IMG/VR virus record: IMGVR_UViG_3300022818_000014
Span: 1-26,302 of that record
Reading direction: 5' to 3' (one strand)
From: a virus
Length of the DNA: 26,302 nucleotides
A program made the position numbers and the translations under genes. The notes under the pieces were generated by a model that worked only from the letters and a program-made list of their open reading frames with translations, was not told the DNA's origin and did not search any database. Numbering within the stretch: the first letter of the stretch is position 1; each line of letters begins with the position of its first letter. This document shows positions 4,032-22,864 of the stretch, piece after piece.

Positions 4032-5949
4032 GTACCCAGAAATGGTTACCAAGTTTGTAAACTATATCAGTACTCACGCTCAGGGAACAATTAACCTGAC
4101 AGATGAGGTATCTTACAATCAGAAAGATGTTATTAAAGATAACATTTTAGATAGGAATTTTAAATTCTCTGTACCTTTATATTCAGATGGAGATGAAAAG
4201 ACCTACTTCTCGATACCTTACATTTTAGCAGATGCGGTTTATAGAAACACCGATTTAGATACTAAAGATATCCAGATTAAATCTGACAACCCAGCGGCGA
4301 TTGATTGGATTCCCCTTATTCGTGGTGGAGTTAGAAACTACCTAAAGACTTCTCACTACGAGGATTTAATGAATGACATCCGTAAAGAACTGATTGATAT
4401 GGGTCACGTCATCACCAAGGAAGTTGATGATGATACTAAGATTGTTAGCCTTTTAAATATTGTTCGCCCAGCAGATTCGATTGATATCCAAGATGGAGGA
4501 TGTGCAGAAGCTGTGTATATGTCTTGGGAACAAATGCAATCCAACAAAGAAGCCTGGGGTGATTCTTGGAAAGAAGTTGTAAAACTAAAAGAGATAATGG
4601 ATTCTGTCCAACGCAAGACCTTTAGGGTTTATGAGTTTTGGACTATAGATAAATTTAAAGTAGCGGGTGAAGAAAAAGAAACCAAGGGTTGTATCAAATT
4701 TTTAGACAATACCATGGTGGAAGCGGAAGTTCCGCAAGACCCAGCCAACTGGTTCCCCTATGTAGTATTGGAAAAATTCTCAACTCCTTATACCGAAACG
4801 ATTAAGGGAGAACGATTAAAGAAACTTAAAAAAGCTGGATTGATTCGTGGTGTTGACCAACTACCGATTTATCCTTACGAAGAACAAGCCTTGATAAAAG
4901 TTCTAGGACGATGGATGGGTATGGGTTATTACGAACTACTCAGAAACGAAGGCAAGGCATTTAATAAGACGATGAACTCTAAACTCCGTTATGATGACCT
5001 TTTACATAAGGGAGTTACGGTTCACACAAAAGCTCCATTTGGTTCTAACCAAAAGGGTTCTGGACGAGGATTAGAAGCGGACATTATGAATCGCATCCAA
5101 ACTGGAACTATGATTTCTATTAAAGCAGGAGAAAAGATAGAACGTTTAAATCTTGGAACTTTGACAGCGGACTTTTTAGCAACAGCAGAAAAATGGTTTG
5201 AACTGGCCAGACAAAAAGTTGGCATCTCTCAAACAGCTGTGGCTCAAGCCCTGCCAAGTTCTACTCCAGCTACCACTGCTGTCATTAACGAGAAGCAAGC
5301 TAAGAACGCATTTGATATTGTTAATGAACAGCAGGGAATATTTTTTGAAAGACTATTCTCTCGGTTCAAGATTAAGACAATTATCGAAGCCTTAACCCAA
5401 GAAGAGTGGACTAAGATTATAGGAGACCCCGATGAACTAGCTCGTATGGAAGAAGCCTTTGTTCAGAACCTAGTGAACTCAAAAGTTCAAGAAGCGGCTG
5501 ACCTAGGTAAGTTTGTTCCAGAAGGTTCTTCAATGCCACCCGAAGAATTAGATAAGATTGGAATGGCAGTTAAAACAATGAGGGCAAGACAAGGTGGACA
5601 AAGACAAGCCCAGTTTAAAGAGTTTAAAGATGACTTGATTAAAAACTTCGACTTCTTTATTTCGTTCTACATTACTGATAACTCTTTTGATAAGAACGCA
5701 ATTTTAAGAGCGATTCAAGAAGCTATCAACTCGGTGGTACAAAACCCAATGAGCGAACTAGATGCTGACAAACTAACCGAAGCTAAACTCGACTTAATGA
5801 ATTTAGATATCTCTTCTTACAGAAAATCTCCAGAAAGAATAAGAGCAGAGAGAGAACAAGCTATTGCAGCGGCTCAAGGTGGAACAGCAGTTAATCCTGT
5901 TGAGTCGGCGGCAAAAACATTTGGTCAAAATAATACTCAGACAGCCTAA
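4012..5949 (+). CDS. Portal protein
   Basis: 645 aa, directly downstream of the terminase and upstream of scaffold- and capsid-like genes, the canonical portal position. The length and mixed alpha/beta sequence with a long helical C-terminal half fit dodecameric portals of the larger (podovirus-type) class. The C-terminal region, after about residue 560, is helical and rich in Glu/Lys/Gln, ending in an Ala/Asn/Thr-rich tail (AAKTFGQNNTQTA). The portal forms the head vertex that docks terminase and later the adaptor. No single diagnostic motif is visible; assignment depends on synteny, size and general sequence character. The stop overlaps the next start as TAATG. Confidence 0.82.
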   Translation: METKKIEYPEMVTKFVNYISTHAQGTINLTDEVSYNQKDVIKDNILDRNFKFSVPLYSDGDEKTYFSIPYILADAVYRNTDLDTKDIQIKSDNPAAIDWIPLIRGGVRNYLKTSHYEDLMNDIRKELIDMGHVITKEVDDDTKIVSLLNIVRPADSIDIQDGGCAEAVYMSWEQMQSNKEAWGDSWKEVVKLKEIMDSVQRKTFRVYEFWTIDKFKVAGEEKETKGCIKFLDNTMVEAEVPQDPANWFPYVVLEKFSTPYTETIKGERLKKLKKAGLIRGVDQLPIYPYEEQALIKVLGRWMGMGYYELLRNEGKAFNKTMNSKLRYDDLLHKGVTVHTKAPFGSNQKGSGRGLEADIMNRIQTGTMISIKAGEKIERLNLGTLTADFLATAEKWFELARQKVGISQTAVAQALPSSTPATTAVINEKQAKNAFDIVNEQQGIFFERLFSRFKIKTIIEALTQEEWTKIIGDPDELARMEEAFVQNLVNSKVQEAADLGKFVPEGSSMPPEELDKIGMAVKTMRARQGGQRQAQFKEFKDDLIKNFDFFISFYITDNSFDKNAILRAIQEAINSVVQNPMSELDADKLTEAKLDLMNLDISSYRKSPERIRAEREQAIAAAQGGTAVNPVESAAKTFGQNNTQTA

Positions 5950-6197
5950 TGGTTAAAAAAGAAATAGACAAAGTAAAACAAGCCGAACAATTTATGACGG
6001 CTTGGAGAAATTCAGATTTCTATGATTTTGTCATAGAAGTAATTGAAACTGAATTAAGGGCTGAACATTTAAATGTGGCGATGTTTAAATCTATGGATGA
6101 AGGAACTCCCCTTTCAAATGAAGAGGTTGGTCAAATGGCCAAGATAGAGTTTCAAGCCAATTTAAGAATACAAAATATCAAAGACGCTTTAGAATAG
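5949..6197 (+). CDS. 82-aa helical hypothetical
   Basis: Translationally coupled to the portal through a TAATG overlap. The protein is almost all helix, charged and without cysteine or membrane segments (for example FVIEVIETELRAEHLNVAMF). Similar small helical proteins are common between portal and scaffold genes, but no function can be named. Its TAG stop overlaps the first bases of the degenerate tRNA at 6196. Confidence 0.65.
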   Translation: MVKKEIDKVKQAEQFMTAWRNSDFYDFVIEVIETELRAEHLNVAMFKSMDEGTPLSNEEVGQMAKIEFQANLRIQNIKDALE

Positions 6198-6266
6198 CAG
6201 GTGAGTGTAATGGCAGCACGGATGGCTCATAACCATCAAGAAGCAGTTCGACTCTGATACCCGCAA
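6196..6266 (+). tRNA. Degenerate tRNA-Met (anticodon CAT)
   Basis: A cloverleaf can be drawn: D stem 6205-6208/6216-6219 with a GG-containing loop, perfect anticodon stem GATGG/CCATC (6221-6225/6233-6237) around CTCATAA with anticodon CAT at 6228-6230, a 4-nt variable loop, and a T loop TTCGACT (6247-6253) on a stem with one mismatch. The acceptor stem (6196-6202/6259-6265) has two mismatches (A-A, A-C) and position 8 is G instead of the usual T. CCA is not encoded. It may be a decaying or atypical phage tRNA for Met, or for Ile if the C is modified to lysidine. Confidence 0.6.
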
Positions 6267-6297
6267 CAAATCCTTTAATAAATTAACAAAAAAAAGC

Positions 6298-7280: not shown

Positions 7281-7315
7281 GTAAATAGAAGCTAATTAAA
7301 AACTAAATTAAACTA

Positions 7316-7711
7316 ATGAGCGATTACGCATATTCAGCGGTCAAAGGTGTCAAAGAATCCTTTGATTTAGCTAGTAAAGCTTCTATCCTCGAATATAAAG
7401 ATTCAAGAATCTTTAATTTCGAGCAAACCCAAGAATGGACTGAAATTTTCAATTCCACAGAAGGTTTGACAGGAGCTAAAGAATTGGCAGATGCAGAAAC
7501 TCCTCCTACTCTTTCTGAAGAGGAAGGATACCAAGTTTCTCTGTCAAACAAAAGATTCGGTGGAGCTATTGAAATCACCGAGACCGACAAAATGAAAGCG
7601 GGAGATAGCACAACTATGATTGATAAATTCCTCGAAAGACAAAGAAATGACCTGATTCAAGACAACAGGAATCTTTTCTTGAGGAAACTGCAAACCAGAA
7701 TTTCTTGTTAG
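7316..7711 (+). CDS. Major capsid protein, N-terminal part (gene interrupted by inversion)
   Basis: The first 122 residues (7316-7682) look like a normal HK97-fold capsid N-terminus: an N-terminal helical arm, then EEEGYQVSLSNKRFGG, EITETDKMKAGD and a helix ERQRNDLIQDNRNLF. At base 7682 the frame enters a segment that reads sensibly only on the other strand, and the + frame ends after ten unrelated residues at 7711. The missing middle lies inverted at 7683-8074 and the C-terminus resumes at 8076-8237. As shown, the + strand cannot make a full capsid protein. The start ATG has an A-rich leader without a Shine-Dalgarno. Confidence 0.85.
   Translation: MSDYAYSAVKGVKESFDLASKASILEYKDSRIFNFEQTQEWTEIFNSTEGLTGAKELADAETPPTLSEEEGYQVSLSNKRFGGAIEITETDKMKAGDSTTMIDKFLERQRNDLIQDNRNLFLRKLQTRISC
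7667..7682 (+). repeat. 16-bp inverted repeat, left arm, in capsid gene
   Basis: AGGAATCTTTTCTTGA is the exact reverse complement of 8075-8090. The arms sit at the points where capsid coding switches strand, so recombination or template switching between them explains the inversion of the 392 bp in between. Confidence 0.9.
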
Positions 7712-8074
7712 CAGCAGTGATATAAGGAGTTTCGATAAGAGTATATTCACCCTCATAGATGTTTATATCAGCAACAGAGGTAGGAGTCATTCCGTGCATA
7801 CCAAAAAGCTTTTTGGCTTCTCGGGCGGCATCAGAACCTTTCTTCACGATAATCGTGTCGAAAGTGATAGGAAGAGGTTTTCCGTTAGCATCAACAAATG
7901 CACCACCGTAATCTTCCAAATCGTCAATAGCGTCTTGTCCGAAGACAGCCGTTCCTGAGTTAACGAAAGTATTTCCTGTTGATTTATAGACGTGAGTACC
8001 GCAAAGGGCAATACCGTCTGGGGCTAGGTAATAAGTTCCAGCAAAAGCATCATTGAGCATCAAAAAGATGTTCG
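7683..8074 (-). pseudogene. Major capsid protein, middle segment, inverted
   Basis: Read on the minus strand from 8074 down, this gives about 130 residues of capsid-like sequence: NDAFAGTYYLAPDGIALCG, a YGGAFVDANGKPLPITFDT stretch, IIVKKGSDAAREAKKLFG, PTSVADINIYEGEY and ETPYITAANKKFWFAV. An open frame spans 8078-7614, but only bases 8074-7683 look like capsid. Flipping it back between the 16-bp repeats joins it in frame to the N-terminal part (RNLFLTNIFLMLNDAFAG). On the other side the join to the C-terminal part is off by one nucleotide, compatible with one extra G in GAGGAAAC next to the left repeat. No minus-strand promoter was found. Confidence 0.85.
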
Positions 8075-8090
8075 TCAAGAAAAGATTCCT
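8075..8090 (-). repeat. 16-bp inverted repeat, right arm, in capsid gene
   Basis: TCAAGAAAAGATTCCT, the perfect reverse complement of 7667-7682. Beyond the arms similarity continues only imperfectly (GGAAAC against CGAAC). No recombinase gene lies nearby. Confidence 0.9.
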
Positions 8091-8237
8091 TTGTATGTTG
8101 GTATTTCAAAAATGCCTTCTATGAATGAACCGATTGTTCAGAATAACGAAGCTGTTCGCAGCAACGTTACTGGATATTGGAAACAAGGTATCCGTTGTTT
8201 GCCTTTGGGCTTCTACGGTTCCCAGGGTTCTGCCTAA
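8076..8237 (+). pseudogene. Major capsid protein, C-terminal part
   Basis: An open + frame of 53 codons ending at TAA 8235-8237: it includes PLYVGISKMPSMNEPIVQNN, then EAVRSNVTGYWKQGIR and a Gly/Ser tail, the typical capsid P-loop and C-terminus. It has no start codon of its own that would make a useful protein; an internal ATG occurs at 8111. With the inverted segment restored and one base removed, the three parts give a protein of about 306 aa, a normal HK97-type capsid length. Confidence 0.82.
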
Positions 8238-8340: not shown

Positions 8341-8586
8341 ATGTATACAAAAAAAATGATAACTACTGGTGGTAGTTATTGGGTAAAAAAATCTGATGGA
8401 ACATTAGTTGAGGTTATAGATGAAAATGGATACTGGGTTGGACCAGACATTACCTCTACTTCCCCATCTTCTTCTGGAAGCTCTTCAGTTTCTACATCTG
8501 CTTCTGAAAGCCCATCAAGTTCAGTATCAAGTTCTTCGAGCGGTTCGGTATCTAGTTCAGTTTCTTCTAGCCCTTCAGCTAGTTAA
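8341..8586 (+). CDS. Serine-rich head-region protein A
   Basis: 81 aa in two parts. Residues 1-36 form a small beta-type domain (GGSYWVKKSDGTLVEVIDEN then GYWVG). Residues 37-81 are a low-complexity tail in which every second residue is serine; the others are S, T, V, P, A, G or E; it ends SSSPSAS. It is the first gene after the capsid hairpins, so a surface protein such as a head fibre or decoration is plausible. The tail resembles the (Ser-X)n repeats of O-glycosylated serine-rich adhesins. It is a tandem paralogue of the next gene. No signal peptide. Confidence 0.75.
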   Translation: MYTKKMITTGGSYWVKKSDGTLVEVIDENGYWVGPDITSTSPSSSGSSSVSTSASESPSSSVSSSSSGSVSSSVSSSPSAS

Positions 8587-8604: not shown

Positions 8605-9018
8605 ATGACCCACAAATATAAGGTGGTAGCTGATAGTTATTGGGTAGAAGAACCGAACTCAAGAAAGATGAGAAAAGTAATTGATGAAAATGCACGTTGG
8701 TGTGGACGTAGAATAGTTTCTACCTCCGTCAGTTCATCTGCTTCAGAGTCTATTTCTACTTCGAGTTCTATATCAGAATCTCGCAGTTCTTCAGTTTCTA
8801 CCTCGGCCTCAAGTTCTCTATCAAGAAGTTCTTCGATTTCAACAAGTGCATCTGGTTCTATTTCGAGTTCAGTCTCGAGTAGCATCTCTGCATCTGTATC
8901 TCCAAGTACTTCAGTATCGAGTTCAAGAAGTTCTTCGGTATCTGCTTCATCTTCGATATCAGATTCTGGGAGTTCTTCTCCGAGTTCTTCGGTATCAAGT
9001 TCTCCTTCAGCTAGTTAA
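8605..9018 (+). CDS. Serine-rich head-region protein B
   Basis: 137 aa, paralogue of the preceding protein: its N-terminus (DSYWVEEPNSRKMRKVIDEN, then ARWCG) aligns with SYWVKK..VIDENGYWVG. The serine-rich tail from residue 39 is about twice as long and ends in the same SSSPSAS. The variable positions include R, D and E as well as I, V, T, A and G. The DNA ends of both genes share CTTCAGCTAGTTAA. Likely a virion surface protein and possible substrate for the encoded glycosyltransferases. The starting ATG follows a short AT-rich leader. Confidence 0.75.
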   Translation: MTHKYKVVADSYWVEEPNSRKMRKVIDENARWCGRRIVSTSVSSSASESISTSSSISESRSSSVSTSASSSLSRSSSISTSASGSISSSVSSSISASVSPSTSVSSSRSSSVSASSSISDSGSSSPSSSVSSSPSAS

Positions 9019-11157: not shown

Positions 11158-11985
11158 ATGCGACTTTCGGTAATTATTCCAAGCTATAAAGATGAATTAT
11201 TGAGAAAGACTGTAGATAGTTTATTGGAAAATTCAGGGATTGGTAGTGAATTGGAAATTATAGTTGTGATGGACGGCTGGTGGATTAACCCACCCTTAAA
11301 ACCCGACAAACGAGTTAAGATTATCCATCTTACGGCTAATCGTGGTATGAGAGGAGCTATCAACGCTGGGGTGTCTATCGCACAAGGTGAATACATTATG
11401 CGGATGGACGAACACCAAATGGTTGGTCCAGATTACGATAGAATCCTCATTGATACTTGGGAAAAACACGGAATAGCAGATAATTGCATTGTAACTCCCA
11501 GAAGATACCAATTGGACACCGAACAATGGAAGATAATGGATATTCCACCCATAGACTACGACAGAATGATTATCCAGGAATCTCGTCAGAAGTTTAGTGG
11601 ATTAGAAAGTCGTGGAACAGCCAAGACTCGTGCCAATATAATGATAGATGAAACCTTTGGTATGCAGGGTTCTTGCTGGATAATGAAAAAATCTCATTGG
11701 GATAAAGTAATAGTGGAACTTGACGATGTGAACTATGGACCCTTATACACTGACTCAATAGAGATGCTCTTTAAAACTTGGAAGGTTGGAGGAAAGTTGA
11801 TGGTTAATAAAAATACCTGGCACGCCCATCGTCATAGAGACTTTAAACGCAGTCATAATGATGGAAGTCCAGAAAATCCATCTCGCAAGGAAGAGGCATT
11901 TGCTTACTCCCTCAAAACTTGGGGCAGCTACTTTCACGAGATAGATGGTAAGAAAATAAATGTATGGCCTCCGATATCACAATAA
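11158..11985 (+). CDS. GT2 glycosyltransferase, polypeptide GalNAc-transferase-like
   Basis: 275 aa, GT-A fold. MRLSVIIPSYKDE opens the nucleotide-sugar fold; Asp39 lies in VVMDGWW; the metal-binding motif is D84-E-H86 (DxH) in MRMDEHQMVG rather than the usual DxD. The C-terminal part GSCWIM..., SIEMLFKTWKVGGKLMVNKN and a W-H-A-H-R-H segment match in order the acceptor-side motifs of polypeptide GalNAc-transferases (GT27). These enzymes add sugar to Ser/Thr of proteins, which would fit the serine-rich virion proteins here. The same architecture recurs in the gene at 15455. The donor sugar cannot be read from sequence. Overlaps the next gene by 22 bp. Confidence 0.8.
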   Translation: MRLSVIIPSYKDELLRKTVDSLLENSGIGSELEIIVVMDGWWINPPLKPDKRVKIIHLTANRGMRGAINAGVSIAQGEYIMRMDEHQMVGPDYDRILIDTWEKHGIADNCIVTPRRYQLDTEQWKIMDIPPIDYDRMIIQESRQKFSGLESRGTAKTRANIMIDETFGMQGSCWIMKKSHWDKVIVELDDVNYGPLYTDSIEMLFKTWKVGGKLMVNKNTWHAHRHRDFKRSHNDGSPENPSRKEEAFAYSLKTWGSYFHEIDGKKINVWPPISQ

Positions 11986-12665
11986 TTCTGTTGACTAATA
12001 ATCGTCTACCAATCGCCTGGCAGAAATTTCATAAAGAACAATTACTGAAATCTGCTGGAGACATACCTATTATATCAGTCTCTCAAAAAACAATGGACTT
12101 GGGAACTAACCTAATCCAAGACCAACCACCTTCAAAACCAAATATCTTTTATCAGTTAATGAGAGGGATGAGATTAGTTAAGACGAAGTATGTAGCAGTT
12201 TGTGAGGATGACACGCTATACAGCCCAGACCACTTTACTTTTCGCCCTCCAGAAGATTCTTTCGCATATAATAAACACCGTTGGAGTTTATATTCCTGGA
12301 ATCCAATATATCATTTAAAAAATTGGATTAAGACTGGAGCAGTTCTGATTGCTCCCACAAAGTTAGCTTTAACCTTACTATCAGAACGCTTTACAAAATA
12401 TCCAATGGGTGGAGAGATGCCACTAGGGATGTGTGGAGAACTAGGAGTCTACGAGAAAGAATTAGGACTGGAAGTAAGAAAAGTTATTACCTTTAGTTCA
12501 CAAAACCCAGTTATCCAATTAGACACAGACTACTTTACAAAAATAAACGAAACCAAGGAGACTGTCGAAAGACGACATAAAAAATCTCTTGGAGAAATAA
12601 AAGCTCTATCGGTTCCATACTGGGGTGAAAGTAAAAATTTAGTTAGATATTTCAATGAGGAATGA
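11964..12665 (+). CDS. GT-A-like glycosyltransferase, copy 1 of a duplicated pair
   Basis: 233 aa. Opens with ITIILLTNNRLPIAWQKFH and has an acidic metal-type motif E81-D82-D83 in YVAVCEDDTLYSPDHF, as in GT-A transferases. Paralogue of 13655-14344 (shared KTKYxAVxEDDTLYxxDHF, RWSL(Y/F)SWxPIY, GELG). Function: probably sugar transfer to a glycan begun by another enzyme; donor and acceptor unknown. Its TGA stop overlaps the next start region (ATG 12655), showing tight coupling. Not clearly a member of a named GT family from sequence alone. Confidence 0.72.
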   Translation: MASDITIILLTNNRLPIAWQKFHKEQLLKSAGDIPIISVSQKTMDLGTNLIQDQPPSKPNIFYQLMRGMRLVKTKYVAVCEDDTLYSPDHFTFRPPEDSFAYNKHRWSLYSWNPIYHLKNWIKTGAVLIAPTKLALTLLSERFTKYPMGGEMPLGMCGELGVYEKELGLEVRKVITFSSQNPVIQLDTDYFTKINETKETVERRHKKSLGEIKALSVPYWGESKNLVRYFNEE

Positions 12666-13137
12666 ATATAAAAATTTCAGACCAGAGTTTGCCTCTCACT
12701 ATCCAATTTTAGTAAAAGCAATCCAGTCTACTACTGGACCAGTAATGGAGCTGGGGACAGGTATGTTCTCAACTCCACTTCTTCACTGGTTATGTTTAGG
12801 GAGAAAGTTAGTCAGTTGCGAGAGTCATCCCGAGTACATAGAATTTGCCAAACAATACGAAACATTATTTCATAAAGTTATTAAAATTGATAACTGGCTG
12901 AAATTACAACTAGAAAAATATAGTGTAGTTTTTATAGACCACACTCCCACACCCAGGAAACGAGGAGATGACGCAATAAGATTCACAGACGCAGAACTAG
13001 TAGTCCTACACGATACAGGAAGACATGAAAGTAAATATGGATACGAAAAAGTCTTTCCACTTTTTAAATACAAATACGAAAAAAACAACACTACGGTTTT
13101 AAGTAATTCTATCGATGTAAGTAAATGGATAATATAA
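12655..13137 (+). CDS. SAM-dependent methyltransferase-like, copy 1
   Basis: 160 aa, Rossmann-type. Motif I is MELGTGMFSTPLLHWL (Glu32 to Gly36), the next acidic residue is Glu56 in SCESHPEYIEFA, and VVFIDHTPTPRKRGDDAI forms a later strand-loop. It is a paralogue of the adjacent 13125-13658 gene. The motif I is ELGTG, a relaxed version, so SAM binding is likely but the substrate is not known; glycan or sugar O-methylation would fit the neighbouring transferases. Overlaps both neighbours. Confidence 0.68.
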   Translation: MRNEYKNFRPEFASHYPILVKAIQSTTGPVMELGTGMFSTPLLHWLCLGRKLVSCESHPEYIEFAKQYETLFHKVIKIDNWLKLQLEKYSVVFIDHTPTPRKRGDDAIRFTDAELVVLHDTGRHESKYGYEKVFPLFKYKYEKNNTTVLSNSIDVSKWII

Positions 13138-13658
13138 AAGAAGCAGAAAAAACAGGATACGAACCACTTACTGAAGGATGGAACCTAGACTTCGGATGGT
13201 CAACCCATCTTCCAATGTTAATTAAAACAGTCTTACATTCAGATAAACCAGTTATAGAATTTGGTGCGGGGATTTATTCAACTCCCATACTACATTGGTT
13301 GTGTGAAGAAAGAGGAATTGAACTTATCACTTATGAGAATGACCCGATATGCTATAACTTCTGCAAAGACTATGCTTCTAAAAACCACAAAGTTATTTTT
13401 ATAAAAGATTGGGATGAAATCCCACTCGATAAACAATACGGAGTTGTCCTAATAGACCATGTTCCCTTAAAAAGACGAGGTGTGGATGCAATTAAGTTTA
13501 AGGACAATGCTGATTATATCGTTCTCCATGATACGGGTATTCCTCGTAAGTTCGGATATCACAAAGTATGGGAACATTTTAAATACAGACACGATTGGAA
13601 AAAGTTTCATCCATTTACTTCAGTTGTAAGTAATAAAAACTTAGACTTCTTAAAATGA
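13125..13658 (+). CDS. SAM-dependent methyltransferase-like, copy 2
   Basis: 177 aa, paralogue of the preceding gene: VIEFGAGIYSTPILHWL corresponds to VMELGTGMFSTPLLHWL, and VVLIDHVPLKRRGVDAIKF to VVFIDHTPTPRKRGDDAIRF. Motif I is EFGAG (45-49), the second acidic site Glu71 lies in ITYENDPICY. The N-terminus is about 15 residues longer. It sits back to back with its twin, followed by the second GT, and its TGA stop overlaps the next ATG. Expected cytoplasmic enzyme, substrate unknown. Confidence 0.68.
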   Translation: MDNIKEAEKTGYEPLTEGWNLDFGWSTHLPMLIKTVLHSDKPVIEFGAGIYSTPILHWLCEERGIELITYENDPICYNFCKDYASKNHKVIFIKDWDEIPLDKQYGVVLIDHVPLKRRGVDAIKFKDNADYIVLHDTGIPRKFGYHKVWEHFKYRHDWKKFHPFTSVVSNKNLDFLK

Positions 13659-14344
13659 GTGAAACAACGATAATATATTTAACCCAAAACTTACTTACAG
13701 ATGGGTGGATGGATTATCAGAAAAAAGTTCTTTTAGATTCTATTAGTGAGGATACTCCAATTATAGTTATTTCAAGAAAACCAACAATCGTCAGAAATAA
13801 AAATGATATAAATATAATTCAAACAGAACCATCAAGTGCGTCAAATGTTTATTGGCAAATGCTTAAGGCGGTTAAATTAGCAAAGACAAAATACATTGCA
13901 GTCGCAGAAGACGACACGCTTTATTTCAGAGACCACTTCAATTTTATTCCCAAGAGAGAGGACACATTTTATTATAACTGTAGTCGATGGTCATTATTTT
14001 CCTGGTCTCCAATATACTCCTGGAGAGATAGAAAAACAAATTGTTGCTTAGTGGCTAACCGAGAATTAGTTCTTGAAGCACTAGAAGAAAGATTCGCTAA
14101 ATATCCCAATGGTACTCCTCCAAACGCAACGGGAGAACTTGGTAGGTCAAGAACAGATAGATTACTCGGACTTACTAAAAGAAAAGAAGCATATTTTTAT
14201 ACTAATAATCCCATCATTCAGATTGACCATGAATTTGGTTTAGACGATAGGGCTAAAAGACATCGTAAGAACTGGGGAAGTTTGAGAGCGTATTCAATCC
14301 CAACATGGGGACCAGGTAGTGAAATTTTAAAACATTTTAATTAA
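13655..14344 (+). CDS. GT-A-like glycosyltransferase, copy 2 of a duplicated pair
   Basis: 229 aa, homologous to 11964-12665. The motif E85-D86-D87 lies in KTKYIAVAEDDTLYFRDHF, followed by RWSLFSWSPIYSW and GELGRSRTDR. The order GT, MT, MT, GT mirrors the copies around the centre of the block. The two transferases are diverged, so they probably act on different sugars or positions. Starts at an ATGA overlap and is followed immediately by a methyltransferase at 14345. Confidence 0.72.
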   Translation: MSETTIIYLTQNLLTDGWMDYQKKVLLDSISEDTPIIVISRKPTIVRNKNDINIIQTEPSSASNVYWQMLKAVKLAKTKYIAVAEDDTLYFRDHFNFIPKREDTFYYNCSRWSLFSWSPIYSWRDRKTNCCLVANRELVLEALEERFAKYPNGTPPNATGELGRSRTDRLLGLTKRKEAYFYTNNPIIQIDHEFGLDDRAKRHRKNWGSLRAYSIPTWGPGSEILKHFN

Positions 14345-14881
14345 ATGGAAAAAGAATTTACGAAATATTCTACGCATCACGATTACCATTGGAAAATGTA
14401 TCAGGATTTTAATACGAAGTACCATCGCCACGCTGACCGAGTTAAAGAATGGATTAAAGAAGAATCAGTTTTAGATATAGGTTGTGGAGACGGAAAGATA
14501 ACTTCTATGTTAAACGCCACGGGGATTGATAACGATGCAGAGGGAATTAAATTAGCTCAGGAACATGGGGTCAACGCTTTCCTAGGAGATGCCTATAAAC
14601 TTCCTTTCGGAGCAGAAACATTTGAATCAGTTTTCATTGGAGATGTTTTGGAACACATGGAACGACCTTTACAAATACTTAAAGAAGCTTACAGGGTTTG
14701 CCGAAAATACTTATATGTCGCAGTTCCTATTCCAGGGATGCAAAAAGACCCGTTTCATATAAACGAGCCTAATGCACAAGAACTTAAACTTTTAGTTGAA
14801 ACTGCTGGATTTAAACTTGAAGGAGAAATTTTAGAAGTCAGACAGGATAAGAGGTATTATGCAAAATTTCTCAAGATTTAA
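14345..14881 (+). CDS. Class I SAM methyltransferase (type 11-like)
   Basis: 178 aa with the classical motif I VLDIGCGDG (42-50), motif II region ATGIDNDAEGIKLA, acidic GDAYKLPFGAETFE and SVFIGDVLEHMERP, a normal Methyltransf_11 architecture. It is unlike the two neighbouring methyltransferases and better conserved. Substrate: possibly a sugar, given the flanking glycosyltransferases. It closes the + strand block, directly after the GT (1-nt spacing); its TAA stop overlaps the stop of the convergent minus-strand gene at 14878. Confidence 0.8.
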   Translation: MEKEFTKYSTHHDYHWKMYQDFNTKYHRHADRVKEWIKEESVLDIGCGDGKITSMLNATGIDNDAEGIKLAQEHGVNAFLGDAYKLPFGAETFESVFIGDVLEHMERPLQILKEAYRVCRKYLYVAVPIPGMQKDPFHINEPNAQELKLLVETAGFKLEGEILEVRQDKRYYAKFLKI

Positions 14882-15117
14882 AAAACCAGATAATCGTTTT
14901 CTACCACGTCACCTTTAGAAAGTATCCAAGTATGGTCTTTTCCATCTCTAAAGATATGAAGGAAATCTCCTTCAAAATGTCCGTACTCTGACTCTGGCCA
15001 AGCCTCACGCTGTATTCTTTTATTAGAAACCGCTTCTTGGATAGCCTCTCCAAATGTTAGTAGTTTTTCTACCTCTTCAACTGGCAGGGGTGAAGAAGAT
15101 ACTTCTGCTTCTTGCAT
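14878..15117 (-). CDS. Tad2-like (DUF2829) protein, putative anti-Thoeris sponge
   Basis: 79 aa. After a short acidic N-terminus, residues 20-42 read LTFGEAIQEAVSNKRIQREA, the FGEAI...G/N-K..-R..W pattern of the DUF2829/Tad2 family, followed by FLHIFRDGKDHTWILSKGDV and ENDYLVF, where the family usually has (S/G)D..A.DW. Tad2 proteins bind the signalling nucleotide made by Thoeris defence and so protect the phage. It lies in a minus-strand cassette inside the glycosylation island, 5 nt after the upstream gene, with no start signal of its own. Tad2 binding needs a check because the terminal Asp-Trp is here Asp-Tyr. Confidence 0.6.
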   Translation of the reverse strand: MQEAEVSSSPLPVEEVEKLLTFGEAIQEAVSNKRIQREAWPESEYGHFEGDFLHIFRDGKDHTWILSKGDVVENDYLVF

Positions 15118-15122
15118 AGTTT

Positions 15123-15425
15123 TTATTTTAAATAATTAATTACAAAACTTCCAGTCTGCGGCTCCACCCAAATTCCGACCCACGCATGAACTACATTGTC
15201 CTGTTTAGCTGTTTTTGGGCTCTCGCCAATTTCTATCTCAGATTGTATCCCATATTTAGAAAGTTCTCTCACCAAATCTTCAGAAAAATTTTTACAGACA
15301 TAGTTATCCGTATATTTCCTATTAGCTATCTTCCTAATGGAATATTCAAGTGGTATGTATTTACCCAAGAAAAATAGTTGAGTAATTACCAATATCAACA
15401 AAATACCCGAAATTATTTTATACAT
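15123..15425 (-). CDS. Membrane-anchored Cys/His protein, transglutaminase-like
   Basis: 100 aa. An N-terminal hydrophobic segment (residues 4-22, KIISGILLILVITQLFFLG) is followed by a domain with Cys44 in NYVCKNFSEDLVRELSKYGI and His80 in VVHAWVGIWVEPQTG, plus Glu88. A Cys near the N-terminus, a later H-A-W and an E-P-Q strand are the arrangement of small transglutaminase-like cysteine enzymes, so a Cys-His(-Glu) site is possible. The membrane segment would place it outside or as a membrane protein. It starts at the predicted transcription start, 7 nt after a TATAAT box, and is the first gene of the minus-strand pair. Confidence 0.55.
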   Translation of the reverse strand: MYKIISGILLILVITQLFFLGKYIPLEYSIRKIANRKYTDNYVCKNFSEDLVRELSKYGIQSEIEIGESPKTAKQDNVVHAWVGIWVEPQTGSFVINYLK

Positions 15426-15432
15426 ATAACTA

Positions 15433-15461
15433 ATTATATCACAGATTTTAATTTATGTCAA
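15433..15461 (-). promoter_or_regulatory. Minus-strand extended -10 promoter, leaderless
   Basis: On the minus strand: TTGACA (15461-15456), 17-nt spacer ending in ATCTGTGA, TATAAT (15438-15433), then 7 bases to the ATG at 15425. It is almost identical to the promoter at 1609-1637 and drives the two minus-strand genes. It overlaps the start region of the + strand GT at 15455, so the divergent units share DNA. Confidence 0.85.
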
Positions 15462-16447
15462 GGAAAAAATACACATTGAGTATTATCATCGCATCGAGAA
15501 ATGAAGAATTTTTAGCAAAAACTGTTGAAAATATAATAGAAAATAAGAATGATGATACCGAAATTATAGTTGGATTGGATGAGAAATGGGCTAAGCCACC
15601 ATTAGTAGACCACCCAGATGTCACGATTTATTATGTACCAGTATCATTGGGTCAAAGAGCTATGTGTAATCAGTTGTGTCGACTTTCTAAAGCCAAGTAT
15701 ATTATGAAGCTTGATGGTCATTGCACGGTTGATAAAGATTTTGATAAGAAAATGATAGAGGGGTTCAAGGAGACTGGCGACAATGTGATTGCAATTCCAA
15801 GTATGTATAATCTACACGCATTTTCATGGAAATGCAAGAAGTGTGGAATGAAATGGTACCAGGGACCGACACCTACTCATTGTATGAGCGGAGAACATGT
15901 CGAGAACCCTAACTGTGATAACACAAGACACTTTGAAAAGAAAATAGTTTTTAAACCCAGATGGAATAGAAGAACAGAATTTTGGAATTTTGATAATGAT
16001 TTGCATTTTCAATACGACAATGGAAGAAAAAAAAGACCAGAATCACAAGGTCAGATAGTAGATACTATGAGTTGTATTGGAGCTTGTTGGATGGTTACCC
16101 GTGATAAATATTGGGAACTTAATTTAAATGATGAAACGTTTGGTTCATGGGGGCAGATGGGCACAGAATTAAGTTGTAAAATACACTTAACTGGAGGAAG
16201 AATGGTTGTTAATAAAAATACATATTTTTCGCATCTTTTTAGAACACAAAAAGACTTCGGATTTCCCTACCCTCAAAGTAATACGCAAGTTAATAACGCA
16301 AGAGAAAAGAGTAAGGAGTTATTTATATATAAAGGATTTAAAGGACAGATTTATCCAATTTCCTGGATGATAGAAAAATATTGGCCAGTTAGTAATTGGA
16401 CTCAAAAAGATTTAGACGAGATTAAGAAAGTTGAATTTAAACCTTAA
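15455..16447 (+). CDS. GT2 glycosyltransferase with zinc ribbon, GalNAc-transferase-like
   Basis: 330 aa. LSIIIASRNEE opens the GT-A fold; D87-G-H89 in MKLDGHCTVD is a DxH metal motif. The C-terminal half has IGACWMVTRDKYWELN, FGSWGQMGTELSCKIHLTGG and VVNKNTYFSHLFR, parallel to the WGGEN..E.SFR.W.CGG..H...H region of polypeptide GalNAc-transferases. A zinc ribbon, with cysteines at 127, 130, 143 and 154, is inserted between. It is a longer relative of the gene at 11158. A role in attaching sugar to Ser/Thr of the serine-rich virion proteins is inferred. The start could also be TTG at 15476, just before SIII; I keep ATG 15455. Confidence 0.8.
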   Translation: MSRKKYTLSIIIASRNEEFLAKTVENIIENKNDDTEIIVGLDEKWAKPPLVDHPDVTIYYVPVSLGQRAMCNQLCRLSKAKYIMKLDGHCTVDKDFDKKMIEGFKETGDNVIAIPSMYNLHAFSWKCKKCGMKWYQGPTPTHCMSGEHVENPNCDNTRHFEKKIVFKPRWNRRTEFWNFDNDLHFQYDNGRKKRPESQGQIVDTMSCIGACWMVTRDKYWELNLNDETFGSWGQMGTELSCKIHLTGGRMVVNKNTYFSHLFRTQKDFGFPYPQSNTQVNNAREKSKELFIYKGFKGQIYPISWMIEKYWPVSNWTQKDLDEIKKVEFKP

Positions 16448-16916
16448 ATTTATCTGGAGAAAGATTATGAACTCGTCTATATTTTTCTCTAGCAAAGGTT
16501 GCATCACAAATCTTACACGGTCTTTTCCCAAATTTGTTTTTAGTAGATGGAAGTGGATGTCCATTCTTACAATGAGTTTTCCTGGCATTAATGGAACTTA
16601 CTGAATTTCCCCTAAGCATATTAAATCTATGAGATACAAGTCTCAAATGTGATGGATTAACACACGCCTTATTCTCGCATATATGGTCAAGTATGGGAAT
16701 ATCCCTATTAGCAACTTTAGGATTAGGTATTGGTCCATATATCCACGCATACATAATTCTATAAACTAACGCTTTCGGACCACGAAATCTGACACGACCA
16801 TATCCCTGCCCATTCTTATTACCAATCCAATTCCAACAACTATCCGTAATTTCTATTTTAGAAAATATACGTTCAAGGATTCCATTATCTAAATTTTCCA
16901 CAACTAACATATCCAT
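16437..16916 (-). CDS. HNH endonuclease, free-standing, homing type
   Basis: 159 aa. An N-terminal NUMOD-like or recognition segment (SCWNWIGNKNGQGYGRVRF) is followed by the HNH core: LDHICENKACVNPSHLRLVS with Asp77-His78, Asn87 and His90, and cysteines 80/85 for a structural zinc; then NMLRGNS and a C-terminal zinc site (C116, H120, C134, C137). Such HNH_3 enzymes are self-spreading genes that cut related genomes. It lies on the minus strand between the GT and the fibre genes and overlaps the GT end by 11 bp. It has its own promoter and leaderless start, independent of the phage operon. Confidence 0.9.
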   Translation of the reverse strand: MDMLVVENLDNGILERIFSKIEITDSCWNWIGNKNGQGYGRVRFRGPKALVYRIMYAWIYGPIPNPKVANRDIPILDHICENKACVNPSHLRLVSHRFNMLRGNSVSSINARKTHCKNGHPLPSTKNKFGKRPCKICDATFAREKYRRVHNLSPDKFKV

Positions 16917-16985: not shown

Positions 16986-18476
16986 ATGACAGATACAGGA
17001 GCAATATCACCAGGAACAGTAATAGATGGTTTTAACGTACAGTTAATTACAAGTGCTGATGATGGTTATGGACAAACTGGTGGTGGATATGGATTATATT
17101 CAGGAAGTTATACTGTTGTTGGTCAATCATTTGCTGGAAATGGTTCTGTATTAGATAGCGTTAAATTTCTTTTGAATAAGTCTGGTTCTCCAACAGGAAA
17201 CGCAGTCGCTAAAATTTATACTCATTCTGGTACTTTTGGAACTAATTCACTTCCAACAGGTTCTCCATTAGCTACTTCTGATAATCTTGACGTTACTACT
17301 CTTAGTACTTCTCGTTTACTTAAAACATTAACCTTTTCTGGAACAAATAAAATACTTCTTAGTTCAGGAACTAATTATATTGTCGTTTTTGAATTTTCTG
17401 GAGGAGATTCTTCAAATTATGTAAAAATAACCGAGAATTTTGATGGTTCTTGGAGTGGAAATATCTGTTATTACGGAGGTTCTTGGAGTTCTAGTTATTT
17501 AGAAGATTTAATTTTCTATATATATGGTGGAATCGGAACCGTAGCGTGGACTAACCCCGATAACGCTAAGGTGAGTGATAATGTGTATGCGACAGCAAGT
17601 GGTGCTAAACCGTGGACTTCTCATTATCTCAAAGCAACCAATTTTGGTTTTTCTATTCCAAGTGGTGCAATAATAAATGGTATTTTAGTTGAGATAGAGG
17701 AAAAAGGGTCCACCCCGAGTCCGGCTCACGAAAGTGCAATAAAAATAGTAAAAGCAGACGGAACAATCGGGACAACAAATAAATCAACAGGAGCAACTTT
17801 ACCAAGTTCTGATACTTATATTTCTTACGGTTCTGACTCTGATTTATGGGATGAAACTTGGGATGATACTAAAATAAATGACATAGATTTTGGAGTTGTT
17901 TTTTCCATTGCTGGTAATGGTGGAACTGGTGGGTATGTTGACCACATCCGCATCACGGTTTATTACACGGAAACAGGTTCAACTTCAACCTCCATCTCTA
18001 GTTCTATATCTAGTTCCATTTCAACATCGGTTAGCAGTTCTCTAAGCTCTAGTATCTCAGCCTCTCCTTCTGCAGGATATCAAGACTACACTAAAGGAGA
18101 TTATGTTTCCCTACCCTCTAATAATACAGACCTAACCAACATTTTTACTGAGCAAGAAATAACCGATGTAGCGACTAAAGATAATGTAAGAGTTTCTCAA
18201 GATGGAACAGGATATGTTTTACATCAATTCAAAGACTTTGTGGGAAACGCCTTAAATATAACTCTGGAATGGGAAGGACAAACCAATGAGGATTGTTCAT
18301 TATCTCCAGTTCTTTTACAGATATATAACCAGATTACTACCAACTGGGATACGGTTGATACGGACAGCTCTAGTCCAGCTGATACCGACTTTACTTTAAC
18401 TGGAACTGTTAATTCGACAAACTATCAAGACGCAAGTTCTGTTATAAGTTGTCGGGTTTATCAGCAACTTGTCTAA
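16986..18476 (+). CDS. Putative tail fibre / host-binding protein with serine-rich linker
   Basis: 496 aa with separate beta-rich domains: residues 1-180, jelly-roll/CBM-like (SGSYTVVGQSFAGNGSVLDS); about 180-330, a second beta domain with NPDNAKVSDNVYATAS and ILVEIEE; then a serine-rich stretch of about 33 residues (..SSSISSSISTSVSSSLSSS..) ending in SASPSA; then a C-terminal beta domain to the end. This build suggests a surface protein that binds host glycans, with the serine-rich segment as spacer and possible glycan carrier. It follows the HNH gene on the + strand and opens the tail region. No signal peptide. Confidence 0.6.
   Translation: MTDTGAISPGTVIDGFNVQLITSADDGYGQTGGGYGLYSGSYTVVGQSFAGNGSVLDSVKFLLNKSGSPTGNAVAKIYTHSGTFGTNSLPTGSPLATSDNLDVTTLSTSRLLKTLTFSGTNKILLSSGTNYIVVFEFSGGDSSNYVKITENFDGSWSGNICYYGGSWSSSYLEDLIFYIYGGIGTVAWTNPDNAKVSDNVYATASGAKPWTSHYLKATNFGFSIPSGAIINGILVEIEEKGSTPSPAHESAIKIVKADGTIGTTNKSTGATLPSSDTYISYGSDSDLWDETWDDTKINDIDFGVVFSIAGNGGTGGYVDHIRITVYYTETGSTSTSISSSISSSISTSVSSSLSSSISASPSAGYQDYTKGDYVSLPSNNTDLTNIFTEQEITDVATKDNVRVSQDGTGYVLHQFKDFVGNALNITLEWEGQTNEDCSLSPVLLQIYNQITTNWDTVDTDSSSPADTDFTLTGTVNSTNYQDASSVISCRVYQQLV
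17977..18074 (+). repeat. Serine-rich (X-Ser)n module in the fibre
   Basis: Encodes a tract with Ser at nearly every second position and I, V, L, T, A, P at the others, ending in SASPSA. The coding DNA uses mixed Ser codons, so there is little exact DNA repetition. Confidence 0.75.
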
Positions 18477-19646: not shown

Positions 19647-20360
19647 ATGGCAACTAGATACAAATTACCTAAAATACCAGTAGACGCTTCAATCGCTATC
19701 ACAGCGGCTAAGACTCTTACTGTTCCTTTAGACGCTTCTGTTAGTGGTTCTAATACAGGCGACCAAACTCTCCCCGTCAAAGCCACAGGAGCAGAAGTAA
19801 ACACAGGAACAGATGATGCGAAGTTTGCTACGGCTAAAGCGATAGCGGATAGTTATTTATACGCACCAGGAATTGTCCAAATGTTTGGAGGTTCTACCGC
19901 CCCTACTGGTTATCTGATTTGTGATGGGTCTGCTGTTTCAAGAACTACTTACGCTAATTTATTTGCAGTTATATCTACAACTTTTGGTGTTGGAGATAAT
20001 TCTACTACATTTAACATACCTGATTTCCGTGGTATTTTTCCCAAAGGGGCTGGAACGACTAACCGTGCAGTTGGAAAAGATGCTAGTGGAAATTTCTTTG
20101 CTGGTATTTTGGGAACTTATTTGACTGATAAAATGCAAGGTCATTGGCACTCAAAATGGTATCGTGGACTAATGACATCAGCAGCTGGAACCACTGAATC
20201 TTATGATGCTGGAAATAGAGCTGCAGTGGTAGCTCAAAATGCTAGTGCTTATGATGATTATGTGCGTCAACCAATTTCCGATGGTACAAATGGGACACCT
20301 AGAACAGGTCACACAACAGAACCTCAAAGTTTGGGTATAACATTTATTATAAAAACCTAA
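19647..20360 (+). CDS. Phage tail collar domain protein
   Basis: 237 aa. The collar domain is clear: IVQMFGGSTAPTGYLICDGS, then AVSRTTYANLFAVISTTFGV, GDNSTTFNIPDFRGIFPKG. This W/G-D-G-S plus F.(I/L)PD.RG pattern is the phage tail collar family, found in short-tail and fibre-tip proteins. The N-terminal 90 residues carry an Ala/Thr-rich linker region; the C-terminus ends LGITFIIKT. Probably a fibre or host-contact component. Followed by the duplicated start remnant at 20460. Confidence 0.85.
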   Translation: MATRYKLPKIPVDASIAITAAKTLTVPLDASVSGSNTGDQTLPVKATGAEVNTGTDDAKFATAKAIADSYLYAPGIVQMFGGSTAPTGYLICDGSAVSRTTYANLFAVISTTFGVGDNSTTFNIPDFRGIFPKGAGTTNRAVGKDASGNFFAGILGTYLTDKMQGHWHSKWYRGLMTSAAGTTESYDAGNRAAVVAQNASAYDDYVRQPISDGTNGTPRTGHTTEPQSLGITFIIKT

Positions 20361-20503: not shown

Positions 20504-22864
20504 ATGGCCTCATATATACTACAAGAAGATGGATTCAAAATACTGCTTGAAGATGGAAGTGGTAGTCTCTTGTTGGAACCAGTTTCTTCTCCAAGTTCTT
20601 CTATATCAGTCTCTATATCCTCTAGCCCTAGCATATCTACTAGTATTTCTGCAAGTCCTTCTCCCTCTACAAGTATAAGCAGTTCTCCCAGTATTTCTAC
20701 AAGTATCAGTAGCTCTTTGTCAACTTCAATAAGCACTTCTCCTTCGATATCTACTTCTATATCGAGCAGCATATCCGCAAGTCCTTCGATTAGTACCTCT
20801 ATTTCAGAATCTCCGAGTATTAGCACATCTATTTCCACTTCTCCAAGTTCTAGTATTTCTACTTCCCTAAGTTCGTCTGTATCCTCCTCTCCGTCTATAT
20901 CCTCTAGTATCTCATCTTCTCCGAGCCCAACGGGAAGTAGTATTTCTACATCACCATCATCGAGTATCTCTAGTTCAGTTTCTACTAGTATCTCTAGCAG
21001 TATTTCACAGAGTCCTTCGATTTCAACAAGTATTTCTAGCTCTATTTCAAGCTCTGTATCTACGTCAATTTCTAGTTCTCCATCCATATCTATTAGTGCG
21101 AGTCCTAGTATTTCTACATCTATAAGTTCTTCGATAAGTTCATCGATAAGTAGTTCGGTTTCTGCATCACCTTCCACTTCTATCTCTTCATCCCCATCGC
21201 CAAGCACTTCGATATCTGTATCTCCGTCTTCTAGTATCTCTACGAGTATATCGTCTTCTATATCGACTTCGGTTAGTGCTAGTCCGTCAATCTCGACATC
21301 TATATCATCCAGTCCGTCTATAAGTACGTCTATATCAACTTCTGTCTCTACATCTCCGAGTACTTCTATTTCAACATCTTTATCAAGTTCTGTTTCGTCT
21401 TCTCCATCAATTAGTACCTCTCTTTCTAGTTCGGTATCCTCAAGTCCTTCAATATCAATCAGTTCATCTCCATCTTCTTCAATCTCATCTTCACCGTCTC
21501 CCAGTACATCAATATCAGCCTCACCCTCAACTAGTCCATCGACAAGCATCTCTGCCTCACCGTCTATTTCCATAAGTGCTTCTCCAAGTATTTCTACTTC
21601 TATTAGTAGTTCTATCAGTTCTAGTATTTCGACATCTGTTTCATCTTCGCCATCTATTTCAATATCATCTAGCCCCAGTATATCCACTTCTATTAGTTCC
21701 AGTATTTCGGAATCTCCTAGCATATCAATATCGAGTTCAATATCTTCAAGTATATCCGCAAGCCCTTCTGTTAGTTCTAGCCCAAGTAGTTCAATATCAA
21801 GTTCTATTTCTAGTTCTATTTCTGCTAGTCCCTCAGCACCTATTACACTTATTTTACAAACAGATTACTGGAATGTAATCATAATAGATACTTACTCACC
21901 TTCAGCGTCTATCTCAACTTCTCCGAGTATATCTATATCTGCTTCGCCTTCAGTATCTATTTCTAGTAGTGTTTCAACATCTCTTTCTTCTTCGATTTCA
22001 AGTTCTATTAGTTCTTCGCCATCTATTAGTTCGTCTATCAGTTCATCTCCCTCGATTTCCACATCCATATCCAGTTCAAAAAGTTCTTCACCGAGTAGTT
22101 CAGTCTCTAGTAGCATTTCAACTTCAATATCCGCATCCCCGAGTATTTCTACAAGCATATCAGTAAGTCCTAGTAGTTCTATATCTTCTTCTATCTCAAG
22201 TAGTCCTTCGATTTCTTCAAGTATCTCGACTTCCATTTCCACATCTCCGAGTATCTCGATATCTAGTTCTTTGTCTTCTTCTGTTTCAAGTTCACCATCG
22301 CCAAGTACCTCAATTTCTTCAAGTATCTCGAAATCACCAAGTCTAAGCCCATCTATTTCAGTAAGTTCAAGCCCATCATTATCACCATCTCTTTCGATAA
22401 GCACCTCAATTTCAACAAGTCCGTCTTCGTCAATTTCTTTTTCAATTAGTTCTAGTATATCTAGTTCTCCATCTATATCCACCAGTATTTCCAGTTCTAT
22501 CAGTTCTTCAATAAGCGTTTCCCCATCAAGTTCAATATCCTCATCAATATCAGCCAGTCCCTCTCCTAGTTCTTCAATTTCCTCCTCTCCAAGTACCTCA
22601 CCAAGTACGAGTATTTCCAGTAGTCCCTCCACTTCAATATCTTCCTCTCCCTCACCGACAGCTGAAGACCACATTTTTAACTACGAAAAACCAAACCAAC
22701 CCCATTACGTTAATCACGGTAAACCCAATCAACCAATTTATATCTACCTTAATAAACCAGGACAACCTGTTTACACTAACCACGCTAAACCAACTATCGT
22801 AATTTACATCAACCACACCAAACCTAATCAACCAACTTATAGGAATATTAAACGCCCAATATAA
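20504..22864 (+). CDS. 786-aa serine-rich repeat virion protein (mucin-like)
   Basis: Three parts. The N-terminus MASYILQEDGFKILLEDGSG, then SLLLEP, is the short LLEDGSG module common in phage proteins. Residues 28 to about 720 form two long (X-Ser)n tracts, nearly perfect alternation of Ser with I, V, L, P, T, S, A and few others, split by ITLILQTDYWNVIIIDT. The C-terminus has five 11-residue repeats of the KPNQPxYxNHx type. There is no signal peptide or sortase motif, so it should be a virion component. The tracts strongly recall serine-rich repeat adhesins and mucin domains and are the best candidate acceptor for the encoded O-glycosyltransferases. All six Ser codons are mixed, which lowers DNA repetition. 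Long antisense frames here are composition artefacts. Confidence 0.8.
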   Translation: MASYILQEDGFKILLEDGSGSLLLEPVSSPSSSISVSISSSPSISTSISASPSPSTSISSSPSISTSISSSLSTSISTSPSISTSISSSISASPSISTSISESPSISTSISTSPSSSISTSLSSSVSSSPSISSSISSSPSPTGSSISTSPSSSISSSVSTSISSSISQSPSISTSISSSISSSVSTSISSSPSISISASPSISTSISSSISSSISSSVSASPSTSISSSPSPSTSISVSPSSSISTSISSSISTSVSASPSISTSISSSPSISTSISTSVSTSPSTSISTSLSSSVSSSPSISTSLSSSVSSSPSISISSSPSSSISSSPSPSTSISASPSTSPSTSISASPSISISASPSISTSISSSISSSISTSVSSSPSISISSSPSISTSISSSISESPSISISSSISSSISASPSVSSSPSSSISSSISSSISASPSAPITLILQTDYWNVIIIDTYSPSASISTSPSISISASPSVSISSSVSTSLSSSISSSISSSPSISSSISSSPSISTSISSSKSSSPSSSVSSSISTSISASPSISTSISVSPSSSISSSISSSPSISSSISTSISTSPSISISSSLSSSVSSSPSPSTSISSSISKSPSLSPSISVSSSPSLSPSLSISTSISTSPSSSISFSISSSISSSPSISTSISSSISSSISVSPSSSISSSISASPSPSSSISSSPSTSPSTSISSSPSTSISSSPSPTAEDHIFNYEKPNQPHYVNHGKPNQPIYIYLNKPGQPVYTNHAKPTIVIYINHTKPNQPTYRNIKRPI
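20585..21838 (+). repeat. First long (X-Ser)n tract
   Basis: Encodes about 418 residues with Ser at every second position over long runs; phase breaks are rare (PTG). X is mainly I, V, L, P, T, S, A. It ends in SASPSA, the same signature that ends the tracts in three other genes. Not an exact DNA repeat, but rich in recurring short words such as TCTAGTATTTCT. Confidence 0.85.
21896..22654 (+). repeat. Second long (X-Ser)n tract
   Basis: About 250 residues after the non-repetitive spacer at 21839-21895, starting SPSASISTS. Same alternating pattern, with rare K, F or other residues at X, ending SSPSPTAEDH before the C-terminal 11-residue repeats. Confidence 0.85.
22688..22852 (+). repeat. Five 33-bp (11-aa) C-terminal repeats
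   Basis: Five consecutive units encode KPNQPHYVNHG, KPNQPIYIYLN, KPGQPVYTNHA, KPTIVIYINHT and KPNQPTYRNIK. Conserved K-P at the start and Tyr at position 7; the fourth unit has diverged. Likely a rod-like or docking domain; family unknown. Confidence 0.85.

Follow-up and report, generated by a model that had tools for sequence, protein, structure and literature searches.

Long serine-rich repeats that are glycosylated by co-located glycosyltransferases (GTs) are known from serine-rich repeat proteins (SRRPs), such as GspB, Fap1, PsrP, and the SRRP of L. reuteri, for which a GtfA/GtfB pair is responsible for priming and SecA2/SecY2 for export (PMC6973325). With regard to GTs acting on polypeptides, a family-wide study reported that the replacement of DxD by DxH is specific to GT27 and GT60, both of which are polypeptide Ser/Thr O-glycosylation families, and that a C-terminal His serves as a metal ligand in GT27 (PMC7185993). 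Here, a stretch of 26,302 nt (the window) from IMG/VR record IMGVR_UViG_3300022818_000014, itself a fragment, was analyzed. The window is part of an uncultured tailed phage, has 32–42% G+C, and contains a gene cassette (11158–16447) as well as five proteins with (X-Ser)n tracts, in which serine occupies alternate positions. It appears, with a probability of about 0.7, that the phage carries a dedicated O-glycosylation cassette which acts on its own (X-Ser)n tracts and is exchanged with Patescibacteria. GT27-like O-glycosylation cassette is a suitable label for this system, whose coordinates are collected in Table 1.

The initial annotation had pointed to two GTs with a DxH metal motif and a likeness to GT27, referred to here as GT1 and GT2. 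Both are intact open reading frames (ORFs) with matches to Pfam Glycos_transf_2 (PF00535; 3.7e-20 for GT1 and 1.3e-10 for GT2). DxH (D84/H86 in GT1, D87/H89 in GT2) and the C-terminal His (H224 and H260, respectively) are invariant in the family alignments (A1, A2, and A3), including those of 18 and 26 members, and align to the DAH and GHVFR segments of GalNAc-T1. A single-sequence phmmer search of PDB with GT2 returned polypeptide GalNAc-transferases at the top (1xhb, E = 1.9e-4, residues 201–303), and the top matches of GT1 in such a search were ordinary enzymes of CAZy family GT2. When the profile of the GT2 gene family (A3) was compared with all PDB sequences, the first 15 matches were polypeptide GalNAc-transferases (1xhb, 4e-16), above every bacterial GT; the GT1 profile matched bacterial GalT1 first (6e-12) and GalNAc-T4 second (1.7e-10, nearly full length). 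The AlphaFold (AF2) models of GT2 and GT1 have pLDDT values of 91.8 and 86.8, and the top 50 PDB fold matches of each are all polypeptide GalNAc-transferases (best E 9.8e-15 for GT1 and 1.4e-14 for GT2). TM-scores by query length in these matches are ~0.55–0.72, so that the folds are related to those of GalNAc-transferases but not superposable throughout. A GT27-like catalytic fold and metal site are supported for both enzymes, which most likely work like GT27. Several homologues of GT2 are fused to an EDD/EHD-motif GT-like domain (read from sequence) or to a UDP-glucose/GDP-mannose dehydrogenase.

All five (X-Ser)n proteins proposed earlier are present. The longest perfect alternating runs comprise 22, 50, 16, 150, and 24 units in the genes at 8341, 8605, 16986, 20504, and 22864, whereas 500 same-composition shuffles gave maxima of only 11, 11, 5, 18, and 6 in the same gene order. 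Serine accounts for 6.2% in the remaining window genes checked. The X residue is mostly Ile, Ser, Pro, Thr, Val, or Ala. The 446 tract serines are encoded by all six codons in proportions near those seen elsewhere in the window (entropy 2.32 vs 2.26 bits), with a mixture of TCN and AGY codons that are not interconvertible by a single silent step. Given this codon usage, serine at alternate positions is kept by selection at the protein level, and a (recent) DNA-level repeat artefact is ruled out. Two short proteins end in such tracts, a third consists mostly of them, and in two larger proteins of the tail region they occur as inserts or linkers. No name was obtained for the tract proteins of the window from Pfam or PHROG searches. 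The protein at 20504–22864 matches the NCBIfam ‘serine-rich protein’ NF033849 with a score under the family cutoff, the C-terminal domain of 16986–18476 is 53–56% identical to tract proteins of three loci (L215, L208, and L265), and 22864–24345 has a weak relative in locus L074, which likewise carries GT and tracts.

Strong co-occurrence of GTs and tracts in relatives, on which the earlier proposal had been staked, was found in viral records. IMG/VR was scanned at the DNA level for the pattern P-S-[VILMF]-S-P-S-[VILMF]-S-P-S, giving at least 120 matches that represent a sample and not a census. Loci of the same scan whose pattern match falls outside the Ser-tract frame served as the tract-negative control, and the GT family was scored as present at a GT profile match of at least 100 bits, with whole records searched. 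Among the matches listed, the GT family occurs in 44/73 tract-positive and 0/39 tract-negative records (Fisher p = 7e-12; a single weak 30-bit match was seen among the latter), and in 34/46 versus 0/30 when records of at least 20 kb are considered. An (X-Ser)n ORF is also held, in the fetched DNA, by 14 of the 16 IMG/VR loci collected by GT1 homology. GT and tract lie on the same strand in all 48 viral loci with both and are usually adjacent. A looser Ser-pattern scan detected the GT in 3/15 loci with mixed hydrophobic/Pro X residues and in 0/60 loci with other alternating-Ser or poly-Ser sequence (SG, SR, SW, poly-S). A non-cassette gene family is common to just 135 of the 1275 pairs of viral loci that bear the GT; since few other genes are common, these loci do not represent one phage lineage. 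Generic GT genes of CAZy family GT2 were rejected as an explanation of the linkage, because PF00535 is only somewhat commoner in long tract-positive records without the GT family than in tract-negative ones, so that other GTs may be at work in some tract phages. Several other genes of CAZy family GT2 with near-equal scores, perhaps an alternative set for glycosylation, are present in two tract-positive phages that lack the GT27-like family (G054 and G079; loci L167 and L212).

When one genome per species was scanned, the family of GT2 was detected almost only in assemblies of Patescibacteria/candidate phyla radiation (CPR), among them a 0.9-Mb chromosome record (L275) and contigs of 0.74 Mb (L288) and 0.46 Mb (L293). 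On Patescibacteria chromosomes, a giant (X-Ser)n ORF is grouped in one block with the families of the GT, the EDD protein, and the methyltransferase. Two loci (L278 and L277) match the window in their order of GT1, EDD protein, methyltransferase, GT2, and (X-Ser)n, and their GT1 is 58% identical to that of the window. An (X-Ser)n ORF is located 3′ of the GT2-type gene within 3.5 kb in 21 of 38 Patescibacteria loci, many of whose contigs stop soon after the GT2-type gene or inside the tract. No capsid genes were found near the chromosomal copies, in which the tract gene is present. The initial annotation had regarded mucin-like glycosylation as a new use on virions, which is too narrow given that the same cassette stands beside (X-Ser)n genes on these chromosomes. 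Its actinophage parallel was not borne out, and an actinophage origin of the cassette was rejected: the phage collection contains no GT2 match and the cellular relatives are nearly all from Patescibacteria. The GT family was detected in 4 of 287 Patescibacteria genomes sampled (E ≤ 1e-40), a low prevalence that marks the cassette as an accessory island.

Phage and genome labels interleave in the GT2 tree (69 sequences), with 13 label changes, at least 8 of which are forced by supported branches, and the GT1 tree has 8 changes, at least 4 of them forced; these values are estimates of exchange, as some genome-collection contigs may be phage fragments. Mis-called bacterial chromosome does not generally account for the IMG/VR GT loci, since a phrog_2 terminase is encoded by 29 of the 48 viral records with the GT, and tatC, a gene present in both Patescibacteria genomes tested, by none. 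Near the Patescibacteria cassettes, tatC was seen in several loci (L275, L278, L288, and L290), and a short protein with a twin-arginine-like N-terminus occurs near the cassette in L278 (5259–5525) and L288 (945–1436). Patescibacteria are also the putative hosts of the phage, an assignment drawn from the cassette relatives only, the other window genes being without close cellular relatives in this analysis.

A mechanism can be proposed in which GT1 and GT2 would attach the first sugar to tract serines of phage head and tail proteins during infection, the EDD-motif GT-like proteins would extend the glycan, and the methyltransferases would cap it. Stepwise oligosaccharide assembly fits the fusion of GT2 relatives to GT-like or nucleotide-sugar dehydrogenase domains. 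Glycosylation would precede or accompany assembly within the infected cell's cytoplasm, such that export would not be needed, and the glycosylated tracts would provide the virion with stiff, mucin-like stalks or brushes coated in sugar. On some Patescibacteria chromosomes, the cassette would serve the giant (X-Ser)n protein encoded there, and it would have been exchanged repeatedly between these bacteria and phages. The virion coat would probably resemble the surface of such a host, and candidate benefits include shielding, host-surface mimicry, and stiff adhesion stalks. Taking the tract as the acceptor is the most economical reading, because the cassette accompanies it in two settings, virion genes and the bacterial chromosome; as the GT2-type gene often precedes an (X-Ser)n ORF in Patescibacteria, the tract, and not the virion, appears to be the common factor. 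A mucin-like protein-glycosylation system is thus probably common to phages and Patescibacteria. A broader proposal, to which we would give slightly less than even odds, is that of a prokaryotic mucin-type O-glycosylation, with GT27-like initiators and (X-Ser)n carriers, exchanged by Patescibacteria and phages, the virion wearing the glycoprotein coat of its host; such a system could also be near the prokaryotic stock of eukaryotic GT27/GT60.

Several points weigh against a dedicated O-glycosylation of the tracts. The WGGEN Gal/GalNAc-T motif is only partly kept (WGxQGxE, i.e., WG..G.E, in the family of GT2 and DSxEM in that of GT1), and neither enzyme has a lectin domain, both proteins stopping after the catalytic domain, where longer homologues have a GT-like or dehydrogenase domain in its place; given these differences, donor and acceptor may differ from those of GT27. 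For the same two reasons, GT1 and GT2 are not filed in GT27, and the likeness noted by the initial annotation holds for the catalytic fold in both AlphaFold models and not for strict membership, the proteins being shorter as well. GT27 itself was reported to fall in one clade with sugar-acting chondroitin-polymerase-like GT2 and GT7 enzymes (PMC7185993). In addition, 29 of the 73 tract-positive records among the matches listed lack the GT family; most are short, and 12 are at least 20 kb. The tract pattern scan, with its at least 120 matches, was a sample, and the proximity of GT and tract (median gap 350 bp; no more than 2 kb in 42/48 viral loci) was partly favored by the fetching of loci with flanks of up to 10 kb. 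Finally, the N-termini read of the Patescibacteria tract proteins show no signal peptide, and a surface location there is thus only putative.

Alternatively, the GTs and methyltransferases might remodel the host envelope (O-antigen/capsule-like conversion or superinfection exclusion), with the tracts as mere flexible spacers of tail proteins. This is a common role of phage-borne GTs, GT1 has a weak PHROG match to GtrB-like O-antigen conversion (2e-5), and surface-sugar genes of Patescibacteria phages have been read as host-adhesion auxiliary metabolic genes (AMGs; PMC12911398). Envelope remodelling is nevertheless unlikely here: it would lead one to expect neither that the GT family is tied to tracts and not to tailed phages generally (44/73 against 0/39 among the matches listed) nor that the pairing of GT and tract recurs on bacterial chromosomes, and the best fold matches of GT1 and GT2 are polypeptide GTs. 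The glycans of mycobacteriophages, which decorate the C-termini of capsid and tail-tube proteins (Freeman 2023, as cited in PMC12619734), suggest another possibility, namely that the cassette glycosylates virion proteins at such sites outside the tracts, which would then co-occur as a marker of the same phage group. The scarcity of other genes common to GT-bearing viral loci (135/1275 pairs) and the chromosomal copies with a tract gene and no capsid genes nearby leave this with a small chance. Modification of phage DNA is hardly credible: virus-encoded GTs that hypermodify DNA bases are known (Pyle 2024, as cited in PMC12619734), but no partner gene for base modification was found among the families scanned, the nearest folds are polypeptide GTs, and the linkage to serine tracts or chromosomal loci would be left without a reason.

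Besides the two GTs, the initial annotation had assigned two further GT-A enzymes and three methyltransferases to the cassette. The two EDD-motif proteins are conserved, family 1 being present in 27 viral and 35 genome loci and in 0/211 control loci, with D83 invariant within EDD/AEAD. Neither has a Pfam match or a PDB relative, even by profile search, and their putative GT-A identity derives from the EDD motif and context only. Of the methyltransferases, 14345–14881 is solid and 60% identical to a Patescibacteria chromosomal protein in L278; the reading of 12655 and 13125 as methyltransferases comes only through the marginal Methyltransf_24 match of a longer relative, and the PDB search gave no relative of these two small proteins. 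A minus-strand ORF at 16437–16916, HNH-like by eye, lies between GT2 and the first tail tract protein, and its relatives adjoin the GT gene in two loci (L154 and L199).

On the plus strand, the window runs from the terminase through the portal-like protein, the capsid region, two short (X-Ser)n proteins, and small head/tail genes to the cassette, which is followed by tail genes including the tail-collar protein and the (X-Ser)n proteins at 16986, 20504, and 22864. The sole tRNA gene of the window, tRNA-Met (CAT) at 6196–6267, is located between the portal and scaffold-like genes. The capsid-like gene (7316–8120) is split, with the C-terminal part encoded on the minus strand (ORF 7614–8078) inside a segment flanked by 20-nt inverted repeats (7667–7686 and 8071–8090, 95% complementary). 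This segment is either invertible or an artefact of assembly or amplification.

Table 1. Features of the window and fused homologues of GT2 in related loci.
Feature	Position	Strand	Remarks
Terminase	2259-3806	+	PHROG terminase match
Portal-like protein	4012-5949	+	position and weak relatives
Capsid region	about 7300-8120	+	
Short (X-Ser)n protein	8341-8586	+	directly 3′ of capsid gene; ~37-aa head, then 22 X-S pairs to end
Short (X-Ser)n protein	8605-9018	+	~37-aa head, then 50 X-S pairs to end
GT1, DxH GT-A glycosyltransferase, GT27-like fold	11158-11985	+	275 aa, intact ORF
EDD-motif GT-like protein, family 1	11964-12665	+	conserved family, no Pfam/PDB match
Putative class-I methyltransferase-like protein	12655-13137	+	family pattern ELGSG..FSTPLLHW..D(H)
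Putative class-I methyltransferase-like protein	13125-13658	+	paralogue, 44% identical to 12655-13137
Second EDD-motif GT-like protein	13655-14344	+	44% identical to 11964-12665
S-adenosylmethionine (SAM)-dependent methyltransferase	14345-14881	+	Methyltransf_11 1.3e-15
GT2, DxH GT-A glycosyltransferase, GT27-like fold	15455-16447	+	330 aa, intact ORF
Beta-rich tail-region protein	16986-18476	+	central (X-Ser)16 linker
Tail-collar protein	19647-20360	+	among the tail genes 3′ of the cassette
Main mucin-like protein	20504-22864	+	786 aa, 52% Ser, 334 X-S pairs in three blocks
Tail-region protein	22864-24345	+	inserted (X-Ser)24 tract
Fused GT2 homologues	L276:9986-12013, L148:5630-7234, L290:10007-11734		dehydrogenase or second EHD-motif GT-like domain

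No paper describing the cassette was found in a partial literature search that excluded preprints. If the proposal is true, mucin-type peptide O-glycosylation would not be exclusively eukaryotic, with cytoplasmic GT27-like enzymes and dedicated serine-tract carriers in phages and Patescibacteria. It would also offer a concrete hypothesis for the surface cover of Patescibacteria epibionts and for how their phages reach them, as well as compact soluble enzymes for the production of mucin-like glycoproteins in bacteria. The cassette hypothesis can be tested with two synthetic genes.

Compared with known systems, the cassette resembles the surface-modification AMGs of Patescibacteria phages in that Patescibacteria-linked phages carry carbohydrate genes; O-antigen sugar-nucleotide and lectin genes are described there, and no serine tracts or GT27-like enzymes, in the available text of PMC12911398. 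With mycobacteriophage virion glycosylation (Freeman et al. 2023, as cited in PMC12619734 and PMC11256854), it shares phage-encoded GTs; virion proteins are the targets there and would be so here. In contrast to the capsid and tail-tube C-termini reported there, long Ser tracts are the likely acceptors in the present phage, and the cassette is common with Patescibacteria. As in SRRP systems, alternating serine repeats occur with co-located GTs, but DxH GT27-like enzymes and methyltransferases are used; no GtfA/GtfB-type GT, only PF00535-type GTs, was found among the window cassette genes scanned. SecA2/SecY2/Asp genes were not seen among the window genes scanned, the window being a fragment, and Patescibacteria loci have tatC nearby. 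The closest systems by profile and fold are the eukaryotic polypeptide GalNAc-transferases (CAZy GT27; GalNAc-T1, T2, T4, T7, T10, T12, PGANT9, and Toxoplasma T3 are solved). Unlike these, the GTs of the window lack an N-terminal membrane anchor and a ricin-type lectin domain, are shorter, keep WGGEN in part, include in the family of GT2 an inserted Cys-rich (zinc-ribbon-like) segment, and have the phage or bacterial cytoplasm as their setting; what they share with GT27 is the GT-A fold and the metal site formed by DxH and the C-terminal His.

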